From the NCBI GenBank assembly GCA_021795795.1, contig JAJYPA010000535.1:1-5603 (forward strand): a stretch of 5,603 nt of DNA, in the 5' to 3' direction. The position numbers and the translations under genes were made by a program. This document shows, in pieces, positions 1 to 5,603 of this stretch (positions are counted from its first letter, which is position 1; each line of letters begins with the position of its first letter). The DNA is from Pseudomonadota bacterium (GTDB taxonomy: Bacteria > Pseudomonadota > Gammaproteobacteria > Halothiobacillales > Halothiobacillaceae). The notes beneath the pieces are model-generated. The model had not been told where the DNA came from and searched no databases. It was given only the letters and a program-made list of their open reading frames with translations.

Positions 1-1
1 A

Positions 2-232
2 CGAAAGACCGACCGCAACGCAGCCCAGGAGCAAACTCGGGCACCTCGTAATCGGGCCGCAGAAGGCCGCTACGAGACTGCCTATACCAAGGCAGGGGTA
101 AGGGTGGCCAACCAGGAGAAACGCGCTCAGGCGCAAGCCATGCGCGCCCAGGGCCTATCAACGCGAGACATCGCCGTCGCTTGTGGCGTCGGCAAGAGCA
201 CGGTCGATAGGTGGTGCAAAAGTGTCCCGTAA
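2..232 (+). CDS. Probable plasmid replication initiator, C-terminal fragment with helix-turn-helix
   Basis: Open reading frame entering from the left edge, 76 codons ending at TAA 230-232; the N-terminus is outside the window. The visible part is a charged, helical stretch rich in Arg, Ala, Glu and Gln, followed by a clear helix-turn-helix at the extreme C-terminus (STRDIAVACGVGKSTVDRW, about residues 52-70). Replicase/primase-type Rep proteins of small proteobacterial plasmids often end in a basic linker plus an HTH of this form, and the rest of the window looks plasmid-like (Xer site, DnaA-like box). Serine resolvases also end in such an HTH, but the residues before it do not resemble the resolvase linker. 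That this is coding is fairly sure; the Rep assignment is an inference from a fragment without the catalytic domain. Confidence 0.55.
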   Translation, partial: RKTDRNAAQEQTRAPRNRAAEGRYETAYTKAGVRVANQEKRAQAQAMRAQGLSTRDIAVACGVGKSTVDRWCKSVP

Positions 233-272
233 TCGCCCCAGCCTTGTATATCCCCCCGGAGGGTATGGTGTA

Positions 273-290
273 GCCTGCCCGCCGCCAGGC
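273..290 (+). other. Short GC-rich stem-loop after the rep stop
   Basis: GCCTG (273-277) and CAGGC (286-290) can pair around an 8-nt loop, 40 nt after the stop of the upstream gene. No T-tract follows, so it is not a convincing intrinsic terminator. It may only shape the leader of the following small reading frames. Confidence 0.3.
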
Positions 291-314
291 AATGTCAAAC
301 AGAAAAAGGAGATC

Positions 315-410
315 ATGCTGGCCCGCTCACGGGGCAGCTCCGCAGCCGCGCTCACGCGGCAAGGCCTGCCCGACCCTAAGACGGGCTTTCGCACAGGAGA
401 CGACCGTTGA
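315..410 (+). CDS. Possible 31-aa leader peptide coupled to the next gene
   Basis: A 31-codon frame beginning at ATG 315. It is preceded by AGGAG (307-311), a strong ribosome-binding sequence but only 3 nt from the ATG. It ends in TGA at 408-410, so the stop overlaps the TTG start of the next gene as TTGA, a classic arrangement for translational coupling. The product is Arg/Ser/Gly-rich without a recognisable domain. Two GC-rich stem-loops fall inside it: GCCGCG/CGCGGC at 345-360 and GCCCG/CGGGC at 368-386. They lie just before the ribosome-binding site of the next gene, so ribosome passage could open that site. The frame is also open upstream to a GTG at 183, but that extension overlaps the rep gene and lacks a binding site. 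Real coding is uncertain. Confidence 0.35.
   Translation: MLARSRGSSAAALTRQGLPDPKTGFRTGDDR
345..386 (+). promoter_or_regulatory. Tandem stem-loops before the 407 gene
   Basis: GCCGCG (345-350) pairs with CGCGGC (355-360) around a 4-nt loop, and GCCCG (368-372) pairs with CGGGC (382-386) around a 9-nt loop. The second hairpin ends 8 nt before the ribosome-binding sequence AGGAGA (395-400). Their position inside the short upstream frame suggests control of translation, or possibly a weak pause or attenuation site (only TTT follows). This is inference from position. Confidence 0.3.
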
Positions 411-700
411 AAAAACCATCCCTGCAACAGCGTGTTTATGCGGCGATTAAGTCCGACCAGTTGGTCAGGACCACCGGCACCCCGGCCGAACAGATGACCG
501 ACTTCGAGCTGACCCGATTCCTGATAGAGCGCACCCCGGAACCGGATATCGAGTACTACCTGGCGGCGGCCTATCACGGCGCGCGCGTGGAAGTCTCCGG
601 GACGCCCGCCGTTCGGGTAGCTGGCGAAGGCCTGGATGGCGCCCCGATGGATGTGACTATTTACGACGGACGGCCCAATGGAACCCGAACTGACCAATGA
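407..700 (+). CDS. Small protein of unknown function in the rep operon (TTG start)
   Basis: A 97-aa frame. The start is TTG at 407, chosen because AGGAGA (395-400) lies at ideal spacing and the TTG overlaps the preceding stop; the first in-frame ATG (494) would lose 29 residues and has no such signal. The product is soluble and slightly acidic, with a predicted helical N-terminal half (QQRVYAAIKSDQLV, then TDFELTRFLIERTPEPDIEYYL) and a more strand-like C-terminal half. No signal peptide, membrane segment or catalytic motif is visible. I do not recognise the family. It overlaps the next gene by 23 bp, and its high third-position GC matches the rep fragment, so it probably belongs to the plasmid backbone. 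Confidence 0.7.
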   Translation: MKKPSLQQRVYAAIKSDQLVRTTGTPAEQMTDFELTRFLIERTPEPDIEYYLAAAYHGARVEVSGTPAVRVAGEGLDGAPMDVTIYDGRPNGTRTDQ

Positions 701-932
701 CCGCGCCCGGCGCGAATGGCAATGGCTGTGCCGGGAGGTCGGCGAGACGGTGGCGCGGGCCACGATAGCCGCCCTGCCCGGCCATCGCCGACCGTATCCG
801 CTGAATATCGCCCGTGCGCTGGACGTGGAACTGCCGCCGGAGGAAAAGTTGCCGCCGCTGTTCGTGCCCGCCGATGAATCAGTGATGGATGCGGCCCTGG
901 CGCAGGCGCGCCAGGCGTTGCGCGGCCGCTAG
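678..932 (+). CDS. Small protein of unknown function, last gene of the rep cluster
   Basis: An 84-aa frame from ATG 678 to TAG 930-932, starting inside the end of the preceding gene (23-bp overlap, different frame). Only a weak purine stretch (GACGGA, 664-669) precedes the ATG, so translational coupling is likely. The product is predicted helical at both ends (RARREWQWLCREVGETVARATIAAL and VMDAALAQARQALRG) with a proline-rich middle (LPPEEKLPPLFVP). The middle and C-terminus suggest a small DNA- or protein-binding partner, but no known domain is recognised. GC-rich codon use matches the two upstream genes. It is the last gene on this strand before the R-M module. Confidence 0.65.
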   Translation: MEPELTNDRARREWQWLCREVGETVARATIAALPGHRRPYPLNIARALDVELPPEEKLPPLFVPADESVMDAALAQARQALRGR

Positions 933-1204
933 GCTTTGGGGGTCGATAAGGGGTCCCCTCATAATGGGTGTTTTTGCCCAAACCGACAAATCGGGCTATT
1001 CCAGAATCCGGGTCAACTCTCCAAGTAGCCGACCCAGGCAAAGCGTCTCGGTGAATCTTGAAACCCGCTTTGCACGGTCTGAATCGAGAAACCAGTTTCA
1101 TGAGTAGGTTTCGAGAACGCCAAGGGACTGATTCATCGTGTCACAGTGACGGGCGTGGGGAGACTCTCAAAAACGGTCTGTTTGAAGAAGAAAGCGAATC
1201 CCCG
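933..1204. other. Intergenic junction between plasmid backbone and R-M module
   Basis: No credible gene in these 272 bp. Three short dyads are present: AGGGGTCCCCT (949-959), GAAACC/GGTTTC (1088-1093 with 1107-1112), and GTCACAGTGAC (1140-1150). None is followed by a T-run in either direction, so no intrinsic terminator can be assigned to the 678-932 gene or to the endonuclease gene ending at 1205. The switch from GC-rich backbone to AT-richer R-M sequence lies in this stretch, roughly after 1080. I found no obvious target-site duplication shared with the other end of the module. Confidence 0.5.
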
Positions 1205-1846
1205 TTAGAGCACTTTCACGCATCTACCTGAAAGCCGAGCTTGCGGGTTGAACTGTAATAGTTTGTATTTCTCACCCTCCGCTCGCTCAGCACTGAAGTA
1301 AAGCGGATAAGAGAGATTGCCACAGGTGTTGCGAATAATGTCAGTGTCTTTCCCGCGTGGGGGATGAAGCTGAAAATTTGTGCTGGTAATTTCGCCAATG
1401 CTGCGTTTGTCATACCATGACGAGCACATTTCACGGAAGACTTCATCTTGTTGAGTACGTACAACCCATATTCGGCAGCGTGCGGTATTACGCACCGTCT
1501 CATCCCACAACACCAAATAGAGGTGCGGCATGCCATCAAGGCTATCAATTTTGTCGGAAGTAGATGCTTTGGTTCCAGCCTTGATAACTCCGTTGAATCG
1601 TGGGGTATCAATTGCTTTCCAGGTATTAGCCCCTTTTACGTCAGAGCCATCGTCCAAGTCGGCTCCTTTTTGCCGTTCAAGACCCTTCACTCCGCACAGG
1701 GTGCTTACGATTATCTGTGACCAACCACGAGTATCCATTGGCACTGGATGACCGGTTTCAGTGGCATAAGGTTCTACGGCATAGAAAGATTCAAAGTGAA
1801 GGTCGAGTAAAGCAAGCGTTTTGTCAGTTGTCTTGTTTGTCATCAT
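1205..1846 (-). CDS. Type II restriction endonuclease, MamI-like (predicted GATNNNNATC)
   Basis: A 213-aa frame from ATG 1846 (or the adjacent ATG 1843) to TAA 1205-1207. The frame is open further upstream to 1975, but that part is the regulator gene read in another frame. The central segment is the hallmark: ERQKGADLDDGSDVKGANTW (residues 57-76), then IDTPRFNGVIKAG. GAD (D63) followed by DVK (D69, K71) fits a PD-(D/E)XK-type metal-binding and catalytic centre. I recognise the overall pattern as MamI-like; this is from memory of the family and was not searched. The predicted role is cleavage of unmodified DNA at GATNNNNATC in the cytoplasm, supported by two such sites in the module's own control region. 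The start overlaps the regulator gene by 23 bp with no good ribosome-binding site, suggesting coupled, delayed expression. No frameshift is seen. Confidence 0.65.
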   Translation of the reverse strand: MMTNKTTDKTLALLDLHFESFYAVEPYATETGHPVPMDTRGWSQIIVSTLCGVKGLERQKGADLDDGSDVKGANTWKAIDTPRFNGVIKAGTKASTSDKIDSLDGMPHLYLVLWDETVRNTARCRIWVVRTQQDEVFREMCSSWYDKRSIGEITSTNFQLHPPRGKDTDIIRNTCGNLSYPLYFSAERAEGEKYKLLQFNPQARLSGRCVKVL

Positions 1847-2060
1847 GTTCGCACTGGCTGATAAGGTCGGAAAGTTTTTCACTAAGAGCCAACGCCAACT
1901 TCTCCATAGTCTCGATTGATGGCACGGCGACGCCGCGCTCAATCTCCCCGAGATAGCTGCGGTTAAGGTTGGCAAGCTCAGCCAGCGCCTCCTGCGACAG
2001 TCCGCGAGACTCGCGGTTGGCTCGGATAACCAGACCGAATTTGATGGCTATAGCAATCAT
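1824..2060 (-). CDS. XRE-family (Cro/CI) HTH regulator, probable controller protein of the R-M system
   Basis: A 78-aa protein, almost entirely one lambda-repressor-like DNA-binding domain: helix 1 around IKFGLVIRANRESRG (residues 6-20), the helix-turn-helix from LSQEALAELA to SYLGEIERG (21-43), then the usual VPSIETMEKLALAL helices (46-59) and a short charged tail. Size and fold match R-M controller (C) proteins, which bind dyads upstream of their own operon to time endonuclease expression after methylation. It is the first gene of the leftward unit, overlapping the endonuclease gene, and is divergent from the methyltransferase. Two matching dyads (2066-2079 and 2115-2128) are candidate operators. 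ATG 2060 has only a poor ribosome-binding sequence, as is common for leaderless C genes. The HTH call is firm; the controller role is from context. Confidence 0.88.
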   Translation of the reverse strand: MIAIAIKFGLVIRANRESRGLSQEALAELANLNRSYLGEIERGVAVPSIETMEKLALALSEKLSDLISQCEHDDKQDN

Positions 2061-2065
2061 CTCGG

Positions 2066-2079
2066 TAGATTCTTATCAA
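2066..2079. promoter_or_regulatory. Dyad O1 containing GATNNNNATC, upstream of the regulator gene
   Basis: TAGAT, TCTT, ATCAA: a 5+4+5 dyad with one mismatch in the outer arm. Its core GATTCTTATC (2068-2077) is an exact GATNNNNATC. It lies 6 nt upstream of the regulator's ATG (2060), so bound protein or adenine methylation here would act on leftward transcription or translation start. Confidence 0.6.
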
Positions 2080-2085
2080 ACTCGC

Positions 2086-2115
2086 TTGACATCCACATGC
2101 CATAGCCAGCAGAAT
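2086..2115 (+). promoter_or_regulatory. Promoter of the methyltransferase gene
   Basis: Perfect -35 TTGACA (2086-2091), an 18-bp spacer and a -10-like CAGAAT (2110-2115, 4 of 6 matches to TATAAT). Transcription would start near 2122, inside dyad O2, giving a leader of about 20 nt with GGAAG (2132-2136) as ribosome-binding sequence 5 nt before ATG 2142. Confidence 0.6.
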
Positions 2116-2128
2116 AGATGCGAATCTA
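2115..2128. promoter_or_regulatory. Dyad O2 containing GATNNNNATC, over the methyltransferase transcription start
   Basis: TAGAT, GCGA, ATCTA: a perfect 5+4+5 dyad with core GATGCGAATC (2117-2126), again GATNNNNATC. It touches the predicted -10 and covers the predicted start of the methyltransferase transcript, so binding here should reduce methyltransferase expression. It repeats O1 49 bp away. Confidence 0.6.
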
Positions 2129-2141
2129 AACGGAAGCGCCC

Positions 2142-4223
2142 ATGAATGACCTTTCCCCCCCTGCAGACCCGCTGCACGACGGCTACACGAAAATTTATGA
2201 CGCACTCTCGGAGCTACGAGAGGGGTTCCACCGATCAGGCAGACTAGATGACTCCAACGCCAAACTCGACGAAGTATCGAAACTATTCGCAACGTACCTG
2301 GCGTTCAAAAATGGTCAAATTACTTTATTTCCAAGCGTGTCTTCAACTGCGCTTATACCCGAGTTGCAATCGGCATTTGCGGCCACTGTAGCGCTCCCTG
2401 AGTACCGCCTTGATTCAGGGGGTTCAATATTTGGAACCCAGCCGACGTTAGCGATACGAGATGGCGATGAATCGTTGGCAAAAGACTTAGTAAGACTTGT
2501 TCGTGATTGTATCGACTTAGCTTTTGATCTACGTGCTAAAGGACGACCGTTTGACATTCTCAATGAAGCATTCGGACATTTTGTGCGCGACAATTTTCGA
2601 AGCAACGTAGAAGATGCGCAATATATGACTCCACCTGAAGTGGTCGATTTTATGGCGGATATGGTGCTACACGATCTAGTTGTTGAGGACCCAGCAGCAC
2701 ACGACCAGAATAAACATTGGACCGTTCTTGATCCATCCTGTGGCGTGGGGTCTTTCCTTGCTGCAATCTATCACCGCGCACGTTATAGCGACTGGCTTAA
2801 TCCAAAACGTTTGCGCCTTGTCGGCCAAGATAAGGTAGAGCGAATGGTGCGCTTGTCAACCATTAACCTTAATTTGTTTGATGTGGAGGAGCATCGAATA
2901 ACAGTTGGAAACTCTTTGGAGCGAGGGTCGTCAATTGATAATCTAAACGGGTGTGTGGATATCATTCTTACCAATCCTCCATTTGGTGCCAGATTTGATC
3001 AAGATCATGTAGCTGCATCATGCGCTGATAACACCCCATTCTTTTCTTCACTACGTCGATCGACGGCCAGCATAGACTCCGAGTTGCTATTTCTAGATCG
3101 CAACTTAAGGCTCCTGCGAGATGGTGGGCGATTGCTTATTGTTGTCCCCGATGGCGTTGTGTCAGCGAAGGGAATTGCAGCATTGCTTCGGCAACACCTG
3201 GGCGGTGAGGCAACGCTTCGGGCTGTTGTTGAATTACCTGCCACCACATTTGCACAAGCTGGTACCAGAACGAAAACAGCCGTGCTTTATTTGCAGAAAG
3301 GTCGCGGCCAAAAGAAAACTTCTGTATTTATGGGCGTCTCTAAAGACTTAGGGTTTCAGGTGTCATCGCGTAAGGGTGTGCAGATTAAGATGCCACAAGG
3401 ACATAATGATCTACACGCCATTCTGGCTGCCTACAAAGTAGACAGCGTCATCCGTGAACATGCGGTCGTAAAAGTTTTGCGTGCAAATCCGTCGTGCGTA
3501 CTTGTCCCAGAGATGGATGTTCTGAAAGGAAGCTGGACACCAAATCATTACAGCGCATCGCGCTTTGAAAGCATTGAATCACTTAGCAATGGCGCTGATT
3601 TTGATTTGGTGCCATTGTGTGACTTGGTTGAATTTTGTTCCGATACTCGCAAAGCTGAAGCTTGGAACAAGGGATGTGGATTTATTTCTGTATTGCACAT
3701 ACTGGGTGAGGGCTTCGTTGATGTTGGGGGGGCATTGAGCTATGCACCAAAAACCCCTGGTGTTCCGACTTACCCGGGGGAGTTGCTACTATCTAGAATA
3801 AACCCGCGAATTCCTCGCGTGTGTGTAACCCCCGACCTTGGGGTTAAAACTTTATGCTCGTCAGAATTTGAAATCATGAAAACAAGAAATGGGGTCGATG
3901 TTTATTCACTGGCTTATTTATTACAAACCGGAACTGTACAAAACCAGATTCGGAGCCTGACCTCCGGAACATCTGCTTCCCACAACAGGATTCGTACTTC
4001 TGAGTTAAGCCAAGTGATGGTCCCAATTGCCAGGCCCGCAACAAAGAAGGCCAAGCTATTGGCAGACATATCAAAAAACTATCGTGAAGCGTTGATTGCC
4101 CTCGCGGTCAGCGCAGAAAAACTTGCAAGGATTCGCGAGAAAGATCATCAGCTATTTGACTGCCGGGTTAGCCCAGGGGATCGGAGAGCGCATGAATACT
4201 CCCAGAGCGACTTTCAACCGTAG
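2142..4223 (+). CDS. Type II gamma-class N6-adenine DNA methyltransferase with fused HsdS-like specificity domain
   Basis: A 693-aa protein. Residues about 1-150 form a helical HsdM-like N-terminal region, followed by QYMTPPEVV (160-168), SAM-binding motif I DPSCGVGSF (197-205), and catalytic motif IV NPPFG (278-282). The order I then IV marks the N6-adenine gamma class. From about 466 (TPNHYSASRF) to about 655 the sequence turns HsdS-like: LLLSRIN, SSEF (573-576) and GTSASHNRI (609-617) are typical of Type I specificity half-subunits. So it is an M-S fusion with one target-recognition domain, suited to methylating a two-part palindrome such as GATNNNNATC as a dimer. The start at ATG 2142 has GGAAG 5 nt upstream. 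It protects host DNA from the adjacent endonuclease. The last 18 or so residues overlap the convergent gene on the other strand and look unlike a conserved C-terminus. Confidence 0.93.
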   Translation: MNDLSPPADPLHDGYTKIYDALSELREGFHRSGRLDDSNAKLDEVSKLFATYLAFKNGQITLFPSVSSTALIPELQSAFAATVALPEYRLDSGGSIFGTQPTLAIRDGDESLAKDLVRLVRDCIDLAFDLRAKGRPFDILNEAFGHFVRDNFRSNVEDAQYMTPPEVVDFMADMVLHDLVVEDPAAHDQNKHWTVLDPSCGVGSFLAAIYHRARYSDWLNPKRLRLVGQDKVERMVRLSTINLNLFDVEEHRITVGNSLERGSSIDNLNGCVDIILTNPPFGARFDQDHVAASCADNTPFFSSLRRSTASIDSELLFLDRNLRLLRDGGRLLIVVPDGVVSAKGIAALLRQHLGGEATLRAVVELPATTFAQAGTRTKTAVLYLQKGRGQKKTSVFMGVSKDLGFQVSSRKGVQIKMPQGHNDLHAILAAYKVDSVIREHAVVKVLRANPSCVLVPEMDVLKGSWTPNHYSASRFESIESLSNGADFDLVPLCDLVEFCSDTRKAEAWNKGCGFISVLHILGEGFVDVGGALSYAPKTPGVPTYPGELLLSRINPRIPRVCVTPDLGVKTLCSSEFEIMKTRNGVDVYSLAYLLQTGTVQNQIRSLTSGTSASHNRIRTSELSQVMVPIARPATKKAKLLADISKNYREALIALAVSAEKLARIREKDHQLFDCRVSPGDRRAHEYSQSDFQP

Positions 4224-4797
4224 CGACATAGCGCCGCTGCACAGGCGACCAACTGAAAAAGACAGCCTTTTCGCGAGCAATGGTTGCACCGAAGACACCG
4301 GAAGGCATCTCAAGATCAATGCGCCACAATGATTCCAACGGCTCGCGGCCAATGATCTTCGCTACGAGTTCAAGCGTATAGGTGCCACCGGAAAACAAGA
4401 ACCGAGTTTCAGTGTCGAGCGGGTTGAAGTGGTGGTTCGTGACAACGCCGGTTTCAGGAACAAATAGACCGCTGCCGCGAACAAGCTCCTTATCACCGTG
4501 GCCCCAGAACGAAAACTCCGCGCAACGTGAGCCCTCGCGGACCCGAAGAAAGAGGCTCTCCACGACCTGCCCGCGTTTGGCCGTACTGACAAGGAGCACC
4601 CGCAAGAAAATCTTTGCCAGAGGCACTTTCGTTCCGACAAAGTCGTACCGGAAGGCGATGAATGAGGGATGCGTGCTACGGACGGTGCCTCGGCGCAAGA
4701 CGGTGAACCACAGCGTAAACAGCGAAACCGCCAGTGCGACTACCGAGACAACGGGTGAAATGTCGGCGAGGGCCATAGAGGCTAACATGGAGGTCAC
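4168..4797 (-). CDS. Membrane-anchored protein of unknown function
   Basis: A 209-aa frame from GTG 4797; in-frame ATGs at 4788 and 4776 are alternative starts, and no start has a strong ribosome-binding sequence (GGTG lies 5 nt before ATG 4788). Residues about 13-34 form one hydrophobic membrane segment (VVSVVALAVSLFTLWFTVL), followed at once by RRGTVR. By the positive-inside rule this puts the C-terminal 170 residues in the cytoplasm. That domain is rich in alternating hydrophobic residues with Gly, Phe and Trp (FSFWGHGDKEL, SGGTYTLELVAKI), suggesting a beta-sandwich. I do not recognise the family. It lies 21 nt after the nuclease-like gene on the same strand, so the two are probably one operon. 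Its 3' end overlaps the methyltransferase gene by 56 bp, convergently. Confidence 0.75.
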   Translation of the reverse strand: MTSMLASMALADISPVVSVVALAVSLFTLWFTVLRRGTVRSTHPSFIAFRYDFVGTKVPLAKIFLRVLLVSTAKRGQVVESLFLRVREGSRCAEFSFWGHGDKELVRGSGLFVPETGVVTNHHFNPLDTETRFLFSGGTYTLELVAKIIGREPLESLWRIDLEMPSGVFGATIAREKAVFFSWSPVQRRYVATVESRSGSIHALSDPLG

Positions 4798-4818
4798 CGG
4801 GCGCAGCGCATGGTTGCG

Positions 4819-5208
4819 TCATGGCTCAACAAACAGTGCATCAACGAGCCCCTGTGAGATAGAGAACTGTTCCATGTCAGCCTTACGGTTGACGCGGAGG
4901 CCGGCAACTTGGTCTTTTGGCACCAAGTACACCTTGGTCTGGTCTAGCAGTAGCTCAGTGTCGTATCCGTGCAGACTTACGAGTGCAAGCAGATGGTACT
5001 TCTCAGGAAGACCACGCGGAGTGGCAAACCGTGCGGTGCAGGTCTTGACCTGAATAGTTCTGATCGCATAGCCCTTGGGGGCGATCAGATCGTTGCCGCT
5101 GTCCTTTATTGGAGCAGCAGCTTGCACTCCATACTGAAGCAGGCGGGTCTGCACAAGCAGCTCTCGGATCGTGCCTTTAGCCATGCTCTTAGATATAGGA
5201 TTGGCCAC
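4819..5208 (-). CDS. Small stand-alone PD-(D/E)XK nuclease-like protein
   Basis: A 129-aa frame from GTG 5208; ATG 5184 (residue 9) is an alternative start with AAGAG just before it. The residues fit the PD-(D/E)XK core: K11-GTIRE16-LLVQTRLL (helix with the first acidic residue), D40 in SGNDLI (strand, metal ligand), and Q53-V-K55 in IRTIQVKT (the D/E replaced by Gln, as in several Hjc- and intron-endonuclease-like families). Such small proteins resemble Holliday-junction resolvase or group I intron-type endonucleases. No DNA-binding or other domain is fused, so a partner may supply specificity. It is the first gene of a probable operon with the membrane protein 21 nt downstream. The nuclease fold is likely; substrate and role are unknown. 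Confidence 0.75.
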   Translation of the reverse strand: MANPISKSMAKGTIRELLVQTRLLQYGVQAAAPIKDSGNDLIAPKGYAIRTIQVKTCTARFATPRGLPEKYHLLALVSLHGYDTELLLDQTKVYLVPKDQVAGLRVNRKADMEQFSISQGLVDALFVEP

Positions 5209-5227
5209 GGGTTGAGCCTAACAAGGA

Positions 5228-5242
5228 GTTATGCCGCATAAC
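5228..5242. repeat. Perfect palindrome upstream of the nuclease-like gene
   Basis: GTTATGC (5228-5234) and GCATAAC (5236-5242) are exact reverse complements around one base. It lies 20 bp upstream of the GTG start of the leftward operon, a good place for an operator; no regulator for it is visible in the window. Confidence 0.55.
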
Positions 5243-5265
5243 ATTGGATGATCTTCCTGGTGGTT

Positions 5266-5296
5266 CACGAGACAGTAGGTGCCGTTTTGTCTCGTG
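5266..5296. repeat. 9-bp inverted repeat (stem-loop)
   Basis: CACGAGACA (5266-5274) pairs perfectly with TGTCTCGTG (5288-5296) around 13 nt. No T-run follows on the plus strand and none of note on the minus strand, so it is not a typical terminator. Confidence 0.6.
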
Positions 5297-5311
5297 GCCG
5301 TGGTCCACGGC
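5297..5311. repeat. Perfect GC-rich palindrome
   Basis: GCCGTGG (5297-5303) and CCACGGC (5305-5311) around one base, directly abutting the preceding inverted repeat. It suggests a protein-binding site rather than a hairpin because the loop would be too small. Confidence 0.55.
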
Positions 5312-5360
5312 TGGACGAATAGCCTGTTTTGTTGGGTTCATGGCCTGCCGGTTGAGGGCT

Positions 5361-5375
5361 GTTTTGAGACAAAAC
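5361..5375. repeat. AT-rich palindrome sharing an 11-bp inverted repeat with 5283-5293
   Basis: GTTTTG (5361-5366) and CAAAAC (5370-5375) around AGA. GAGACAAAACG (5366-5376) is also the exact reverse complement of CGTTTTGTCTC (5283-5293), so the same half-site occurs twice in opposite orientation within 94 bp. Confidence 0.55.
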
Positions 5376-5560
5376 GATCATCCCATGAAAATCCCGTTGC
5401 ATTACTATCGTTAGATGATGGCGTTGGTGAGCAGTATGGCGGCGGATCGCTGAAGGGGCAAGTGTCGAGGCCTGTGCTCTGCCGCTTTTTTCGGCCTGGG
5501 CGCTTTCCCGTTCCCGGTCAGGGCGTTGTCGGCGTTGCCCACAGGATGCCCCACGGATTT

Positions 5561-5569
5561 TGTGGATAG
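5561..5569 (-). other. DnaA-box-like 9-mer
   Basis: The minus strand reads CTATCCACA, 8 of 9 matches to the DnaA box TTATCCACA. It sits 4 bp before the Xer-like site. Single boxes occur by chance, and no iterons or AT-rich opening region are visible, so an origin cannot be claimed. Confidence 0.35.
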
Positions 5570-5573
5570 GTTG

Positions 5574-5601
5574 GGTGCGCGTAAGTCGTGTTATGTAAAA
5601 C
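5574..5601 (+). other. psi/dif-like XerC/XerD recombination core
   Basis: The XerC-like arm GGTGCGCGTAA (5574-5584) differs from the E. coli dif arm GGTGCGCATAA at one base. A 6-bp centre GTCGTG (5585-5590) follows, then the XerD-like arm TTATGTAAAAC (5591-5601), 9 of 11 matches to TTATGTTAAAT. From memory, the pSC101 psi core has a very similar XerC arm and a XerD arm ending in AAAC. Such sites let host XerCD resolve plasmid multimers. The 6-bp centre and the non-coding DNA on the XerC side fit a plasmid psi-type site; a chromosomal dif or a pdif module end are alternatives. Confidence 0.75.
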
Positions 5602-5603
5602 AA

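Follow-up and report, generated by a model that had tools for sequence, protein, structure and literature searches.

Copies of a predicted MamI-type recognition sequence upstream of the methyltransferase gene suggest self-regulation in a family of restriction-modification modules

A stretch of 5,603 nucleotides from a Halothiobacillaceae bacterium (Pseudomonadota; GenBank assembly GCA_021795795.1, contig JAJYPA010000535.1, positions 1 to 5,603 of the forward strand), denominated here the window, hosts what its sequence identifies as a type II restriction-modification (R-M) module of the MamI kind. The module is made of a restriction endonuclease (R), a controller protein (C) and a single-chain methyltransferase (M). 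The C and R genes diverge from the M gene, and the short region in between contains two copies of the sequence GATNNNNATC. M probably regulates its own gene through this sequence, which would be its own recognition sequence, at the M promoter. The features of interest, in window coordinates, are listed below.

1205..1843, minus strand: R, MamI-family type II restriction endonuclease, 212 amino acids (aa), Pfam RE_MamI (PF09567)
1824..2060, minus strand: C-like XRE helix-turn-helix (HTH) protein, 78 aa, with Pfam, PADLOC and PDB matches
2068..2077, no strand: C-side GATNNNNATC site, GATTCTTATC, lying between the C start codon (7 bases away) and the predicted M -35 element (8 bases away)
2086..2091, plus strand: predicted -35 element of the M promoter, TTGACA, top hit of promoter scoring
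2110..2115, plus strand: predicted -10 element of the M promoter, CAGAAT, spacer 18, from the same scoring
2117..2126, no strand: M-side GATNNNNATC site, GATGCGAATC, overlapping the predicted transcription start (about -5 to +4); this copy is the conserved one
2142..4223, plus strand: M, single-chain adenine methyltransferase, 693 aa, with an HsdM-like catalytic part and a C-terminal putative target-recognition domain
2997..3006, no strand: third GATNNNNATC copy, within M, attributable to chance
3582..4061, plus strand: putative target-recognition domain of M, residues about 481-640, limits chosen by us

The assignment of R to the RE_MamI family, proposed in an earlier note made from the sequence alone, is borne out by Pfam (expectation value, E, 6.3e-40; 137.2 bits, cut-off 25). 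R matches 884 database proteins at E <= 0.001, out of 993 candidates. Its start was set from a database entry of 212 aa (P0001), probably the window's own protein, and falls inside the 3' end of the C gene. The note had also placed a regulator gene beside R. The corresponding product is C-like by all matches obtained (Pfam HTH_3, E 1.3e-14; PADLOC Control_protein, E 3.7e-14; PDB C.AhdI, E 3.5e-9, the best, and C.BclI, E 8.4e-9), and a small XRE HTH gene adjoining R on the upstream side is what is found in R-M systems regulated by C proteins. M carries a Pfam N6_Mtase domain (residues 138-398, E 3.3e-30). Its structure model (predicted local distance difference test, pLDDT, 84.4; predicted template modelling score, pTM, 0.85) matches the folds of PacII M, StySJI M and M.BseCI. 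HsdM-type matches cover the catalytic part, and the M.BseCI match spans residues 152-653. Those extending into the C-terminal domain (M.BseCI, 7eew) are whole enzymes. A long C-terminal helix (residues 635-671 of the model) follows the putative recognition domain. HsdM-like part, further domain and long helix in one chain correspond to the composite gamma M~S layout of the XmnI/DrdI kind.

The earlier note had counted three exact copies of GATNNNNATC in the window (2068-2077, 2117-2126, 2997-3006), and an exact-match count agrees. This number is unremarkable, because dinucleotide shuffles of the window yield 1.27 copies on average and 25 out of 200 reach three or more. Between the C start codon, which ends at 2060, and the M start codon, which begins at 2142, lie 81 bp with two copies. 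The same note judged this unlikely by chance, and two or more copies are found in 0.019% of 200,000 shuffles of the same 81 bases. When 832 gapped palindromes (3+3 bases, spacer 0-12) were surveyed, GAT-N4-ATC, the form of GATNNNNATC, was the only one present twice in this region. The C-side and M-side copies also have in common a longer inverted match, TAGATTC..ATC.

Homologous systems were collected by scanning genome contigs with an endonuclease alignment, which led to 27 loci. Twenty-one encode a related M, four a remote M (27-29% identity to the window M; L013, L018, L020, L024), and in two no related M was found. Excluded from the counts were three near-duplicates (L009 of L008, L010 of L007, L021 of L022), the four remote-M loci, L005, in which no related M was found beside R, and L027, in which neither R nor M was found. 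The final set includes 18 dereplicated related-M loci plus the window, 19 in all. Four additional regions were not counted: L039 is a repeat of L021, the M of L041 is remote (28%), and no related M was found in L040 and L042. M starts were set by rule at the nearest ATG before a conserved motif, R starts from the match or the start of the open reading frame (ORF). Searching further genomes for PF09567 gave positives in 1/398, 2/87, 3/394, 4/64, 1/345 and 2/385 genomes. Only G512, G787 and G879 were new beyond genomes already represented by the loci.

Of the 19 loci, 18 (17/18 without the window) carry GATNNNNATC in the 200-bp region preceding M, for a total of 25 copies. Without dereplication, 19 of the 21 related-M loci, and the window, carry it. 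In dinucleotide shuffles of the upstream regions (2000 rounds) the mean number of loci with a site was 1.05 and the maximum 6; assuming independent loci, the nominal P for 18/19 is 2e-23. GAT-N4-ATC ranks first of the 832 palindromes. The runners-up, ATT-N2-AAT and AGA-N6-TCT, occur in nine loci each, and we read them as largely the same sites in shorter or longer form. GAT and ATC separated by other spacers (0-3, 5-10) are found in 0-2 loci. Outside these regions, 162 kb of the loci contain 32 copies, and of 789 other 200-bp intervals 28 have one. The site-bearing loci belong to seven phyla, according to names assigned by us (Pseudomonadota, Actinomycetota, Bacteroidota, Desulfobacterota, Latescibacterota, Cyanobacteriota, Bacillota), and the pairwise identity of the M proteins has a median of 39% and a minimum of 32% (18 of the 19 loci). 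The clustering had been taken to support the MamI call, and does so; the homologues support it far more strongly. Homologous modules lacking the site, named in the note as the finding to speak against its proposal, are the exception.

The M-side site is the only conserved one of the window's pair. In the nine other divergent C-M loci, the 250 bp upstream of M never hold a second copy: eight have one copy, and L007 has none. The C-side copy is thus peculiar to the window. The requirement for both sites was rejected as a candidate explanation, the pair not being kept in divergent loci. Self-regulation as put forward earlier stands as likely for the M side, where the recurrence of the site argues for a functional role. 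Control of both promoters is not supported, because a second copy is missing from all nine.

Sites do not depend on the arrangement of the module. They are present in nine of the ten divergent loci with C, window included, and in all nine non-divergent loci. A search with a C-protein profile among ORFs of 45 aa or more found no C-like gene in eight of these nine; the ninth, L023, encodes one ahead of its two R genes. As a control, the 300 bp upstream of R were inspected. In non-divergent loci the site occurs there in 0/9 (1/11 with near-duplicates), and it is missing from the same interval in the four remote-M loci (221 bp only in L024). Presence in both divergent and non-divergent loci, and absence upstream of R and in remote-M loci, therefore indicate that the sites follow the M lineage: on the sequences compared, the site is tied to M, not to R or C. 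The C-terminal domain of M is almost as conserved as the catalytic part (mean identity to the window M of 45% over residues 481-640 vs 50% over 131-410, 17 relatives), in keeping with a single shared specificity.

Some loci depart from the standard organization. R proteins of the RE_MamI family coexist with the remote M lineage in L013, L018, L020, L024 and L041, and no GATNNNNATC is found just upstream of M in these. Two neighbouring R proteins of the RE_MamI kind are encoded beside a single M in L021, L022 and L023; the L022 pair (4504-5130 and 5151-5981, plus strand, 208 and 276 aa) is confirmed by Pfam for both members. Such pairs are possibly two-subunit endonucleases or duplications. The R gene of L025 (4639-5129) is split over two frames in a locus retaining M, C and the promoter site, and looks broken or mis-sequenced. 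In L026 (4501-4674) the match is limited to R residues 14-74 and no R ORF was found, M and tandem sites being present. L005 (4474-5187) encodes a MamI-family R with no related M or C found alongside; its host, Caulobacter sp. Root655, also has the L016 system.

In the window, the predicted -35 and -10 elements (10 of 12 consensus bases; 1 such promoter found vs 0.2 expected in shuffles) are the only promoter-like match between 1990 and 2200. One base separates the -10 element from the M-side site, which straddles the predicted start, and 8 bases separate the C-side site from the -35. Both thus flank the predicted promoter (2086-2115), and at sequence level, provided that the specificity is right, the window has the own site in the M promoter known from CfrBI, AhdI and LlaDII. 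According to the top-scoring predictions, a site lies in the promoter or across the start in 12 of the 18 site-bearing loci. Six of the nine non-divergent loci (L008, L012, L015, L022, L023, L026) carry tandem pairs 18-19 bp apart, and in L014 a further copy with a single mismatch lies at 18 bp. Relative to the best predicted start, the paired sites are located at -64..-55 and -45..-36 in L022 and L026, one base further upstream in L023, and at -29..-20 and -10..-1 in L015. In divergent loci, GAT is preceded by a cytosine at -7 in 10/10 sites and by an adenine at -6 in 8/10. These bases may represent a weak -10 element abutting the site, or a portion of a larger operator. A variable position combined with a constant motif would be better suited by interference with RNA polymerase than by activation.

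The sequence surrounding the core is biased as well. TGTA or TACA forms the N4 spacer of 8 among the 25 promoter sites, vs 0.24 expected from local composition, and of none of the 34 copies elsewhere in the loci (remote-M loci counted as well). In non-divergent loci an A precedes 12 of 15 sites and a T follows 14 of 15 (A-GATNNNNATC-T). Short local similarities were seen in six locus pairs when 120-bp upstream regions were compared. Base composition and shared ancestry may contribute to the bias; if real, non-random spacers and flanks would imply selection for tight binding by M.

The placement of its presumed target in front of M in nearly all relatives compared suggests that M monitors its own activity and restricts its own synthesis. 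M would modify the promoter copies, and the effect would plausibly be repression. In a new host, or with too little M, the sites would be unmethylated and the M promoter would fire. As M accumulates, it would methylate or occupy the sites, turning the promoter down, and expression would recover once the sites become unmethylated again. M would be kept just sufficient, and C would be left to time R. The sequence does not distinguish methylation of the site from its occupancy by M.

Several observations weigh against this reading. That GATNNNNATC is the recognition sequence of M is deduced from the MamI family assignment and the promoter footprint. The nominal P values overstate the case, because the loci are related. 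The near-duplicates L007 and L010, in which the C-M-R order is intact, lack an exact site in the 200 bp next to M; one-mismatch near-sites lie at -27 and -57, and L010 has an exact copy at -250. Where a MamI-family R is combined with a remote M (four loci), the 250 bp upstream of M contain no site (0/4). Promoter scores derive from generic sigma-70 weights, and the position of the site relative to the predicted promoter varies between groups of loci. The promoter calls are uneven, because sites are found only downstream of the predicted start in 5 of 18 loci (L001, L003, L004, L019, L025) and only far upstream of it in L012.

Other explanations share part of the same evidence. M could repress its promoter mainly by occupying tight-binding versions of the recognition site, as an operator, methylation being secondary. 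TGTA/TACA spacers and A..T flanks are what such selection for affinity would leave, but AT-rich promoters and shared ancestry may account for part of them, pairs spaced by 18-19 bp seem to leave too little room for simultaneous binding of two large dimers, and the Pfam matches of M include no HTH family. We regard this variant as a possibility of the second rank, less probable than self-regulation in the broader sense. The palindrome might instead be the operator of C, or of another regulator, and coincide with the MamI sequence: the two window copies sit at either side of the C-M intergenic region and have the longer inverted match in common, and the cytosine at -7 is constant in divergent loci. 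Eight of the 19 loci, however, have the site and no C-like gene found, and the exact core present in 18 loci is the MamI/BsaBI sequence, so that this view is improbable. A C-box as the explanation of the sites was rejected on account of the eight site-bearing loci in which no C-like gene was found among ORFs of 45 aa or more. When a C-box operator was looked for, the best-shared gapped palindrome other than GAT-N4-ATC was present in 5 of the 10 divergent loci.

An unmethylated copy would be cut within the M promoter by the module's own R, if the specificity is right, and the sites could be cleavage targets serving self-destruction or mobility, with no regulatory role. Their placement tracks the M start, however, and is not repeated upstream of R in non-divergent loci, which makes a cleavage function more improbable still than a C operator. 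Chance clustering of a short motif agrees with the three copies in 5.6 kb; it accounts so poorly for two copies in 81 bp, and for their recurrence in 17 of the 18 other loci, that it deserves hardly any credit.

The location of the module on a plasmid, assumed earlier, found no backing, and neither did the suggested bias of plasmid establishment: 72,556 plasmid records yielded neither a near match of the window nor a match of R. The window M matched 500 plasmid records, none covering 80% of it, with identity of about 30% or less among the 40 matches listed. No match at 1e-30 was obtained for the M of L022 and L015 in the plasmid and phage search, R has no match in phages, and no relative of R or M was found in viral contigs. 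In the remainder of the window, the region 5215-5337 contains GCCTAAC ... GTTGGGT and an internal inverted repeat (5266-5274, 5288-5296), and is reminiscent of an integron attC site; with a hairpin z of -1.8, this identification was considered and not adopted. Two adjoining ORFs of unknown function are located on the minus strand (4168-4797 and 4819-5208), the latter with a sub-threshold match to PDDEXK_5 (E 0.012).

Own-site control at the M promoter has precedents in AhdI, LlaDII and CfrBI (PMC12707154, PMC5333194, PMC4824078), and transcription dependent on M activity is 'apparently rarely used' according to one review (PMC12707154). CfrBI, the model chosen in the earlier note, is appropriate as to control of the M promoter by the own site. 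R and M are divergent, with the own site where the promoters overlap, and RNA polymerase binds the M promoter less when the site is methylated. In CfrBI, methylation additionally allows the R promoter to take over, whereas the C-side copy of the window lacks conservation, and no C protein is mentioned for CfrBI in the part of the account drawn upon here (PMC12707154). AhdI (GAC N5 GTC) is, however, the described system with most in common. It combines a C protein with M-promoter methylation (PMC12707154) and bipartite recognition by a gamma-type enzyme (PMC3874165). It differs in having separate M and S subunits (PMC3874165), M and the putative recognition domain being one chain in the window, and CR and M promoters that are convergent, whereas C-R and M diverge in the window. 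The window's C, as said, has C.AhdI as its best PDB match. LlaDII presumably differs from the present module in enzyme family and sequence. Promoter methylation similarly regulates there, acting on the M gene only (PMC12707154). BsaBI shares the recognition sequence GAT N4 ATC, but M.BsaBI is made of separate subunits, 2M + 2S; M.XmnI and M.DrdI, like M here, combine M and S in one chain (M~S) and are considered to function as dimers (PMC3874165). No data on regulation were seen for M.BsaBI, M.XmnI or M.DrdI.

Among the top-ranked literature matches on MamI, BsaBI, CfrBI, AhdI and own-promoter control, no description of the regulation of any MamI-family system was recognised. The regulatory principle is already known. 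New are its near-universality in one M lineage, among the loci compared, its independence of gene order and of C, the tandem form and the non-random spacers. Tentatively, and with less confidence than for self-regulation itself, M could be imagined as its own repressor throughout the lineage, reading operator-grade sites (TGTA/TACA spacers, A..T flanks, non-divergent pairs 18-19 bp apart). These would form a graded, methylation-sensitive switch working with or without C, which would have been retained, or set up anew at differing promoter positions, across the seven phyla. The ranking of GAT-N4-ATC first of 832 candidates suggests that a promoter footprint could reveal the recognition sequence of M from sequence alone. 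If the approach holds in other families, the specificities of uncharacterised enzymes would become predictable.
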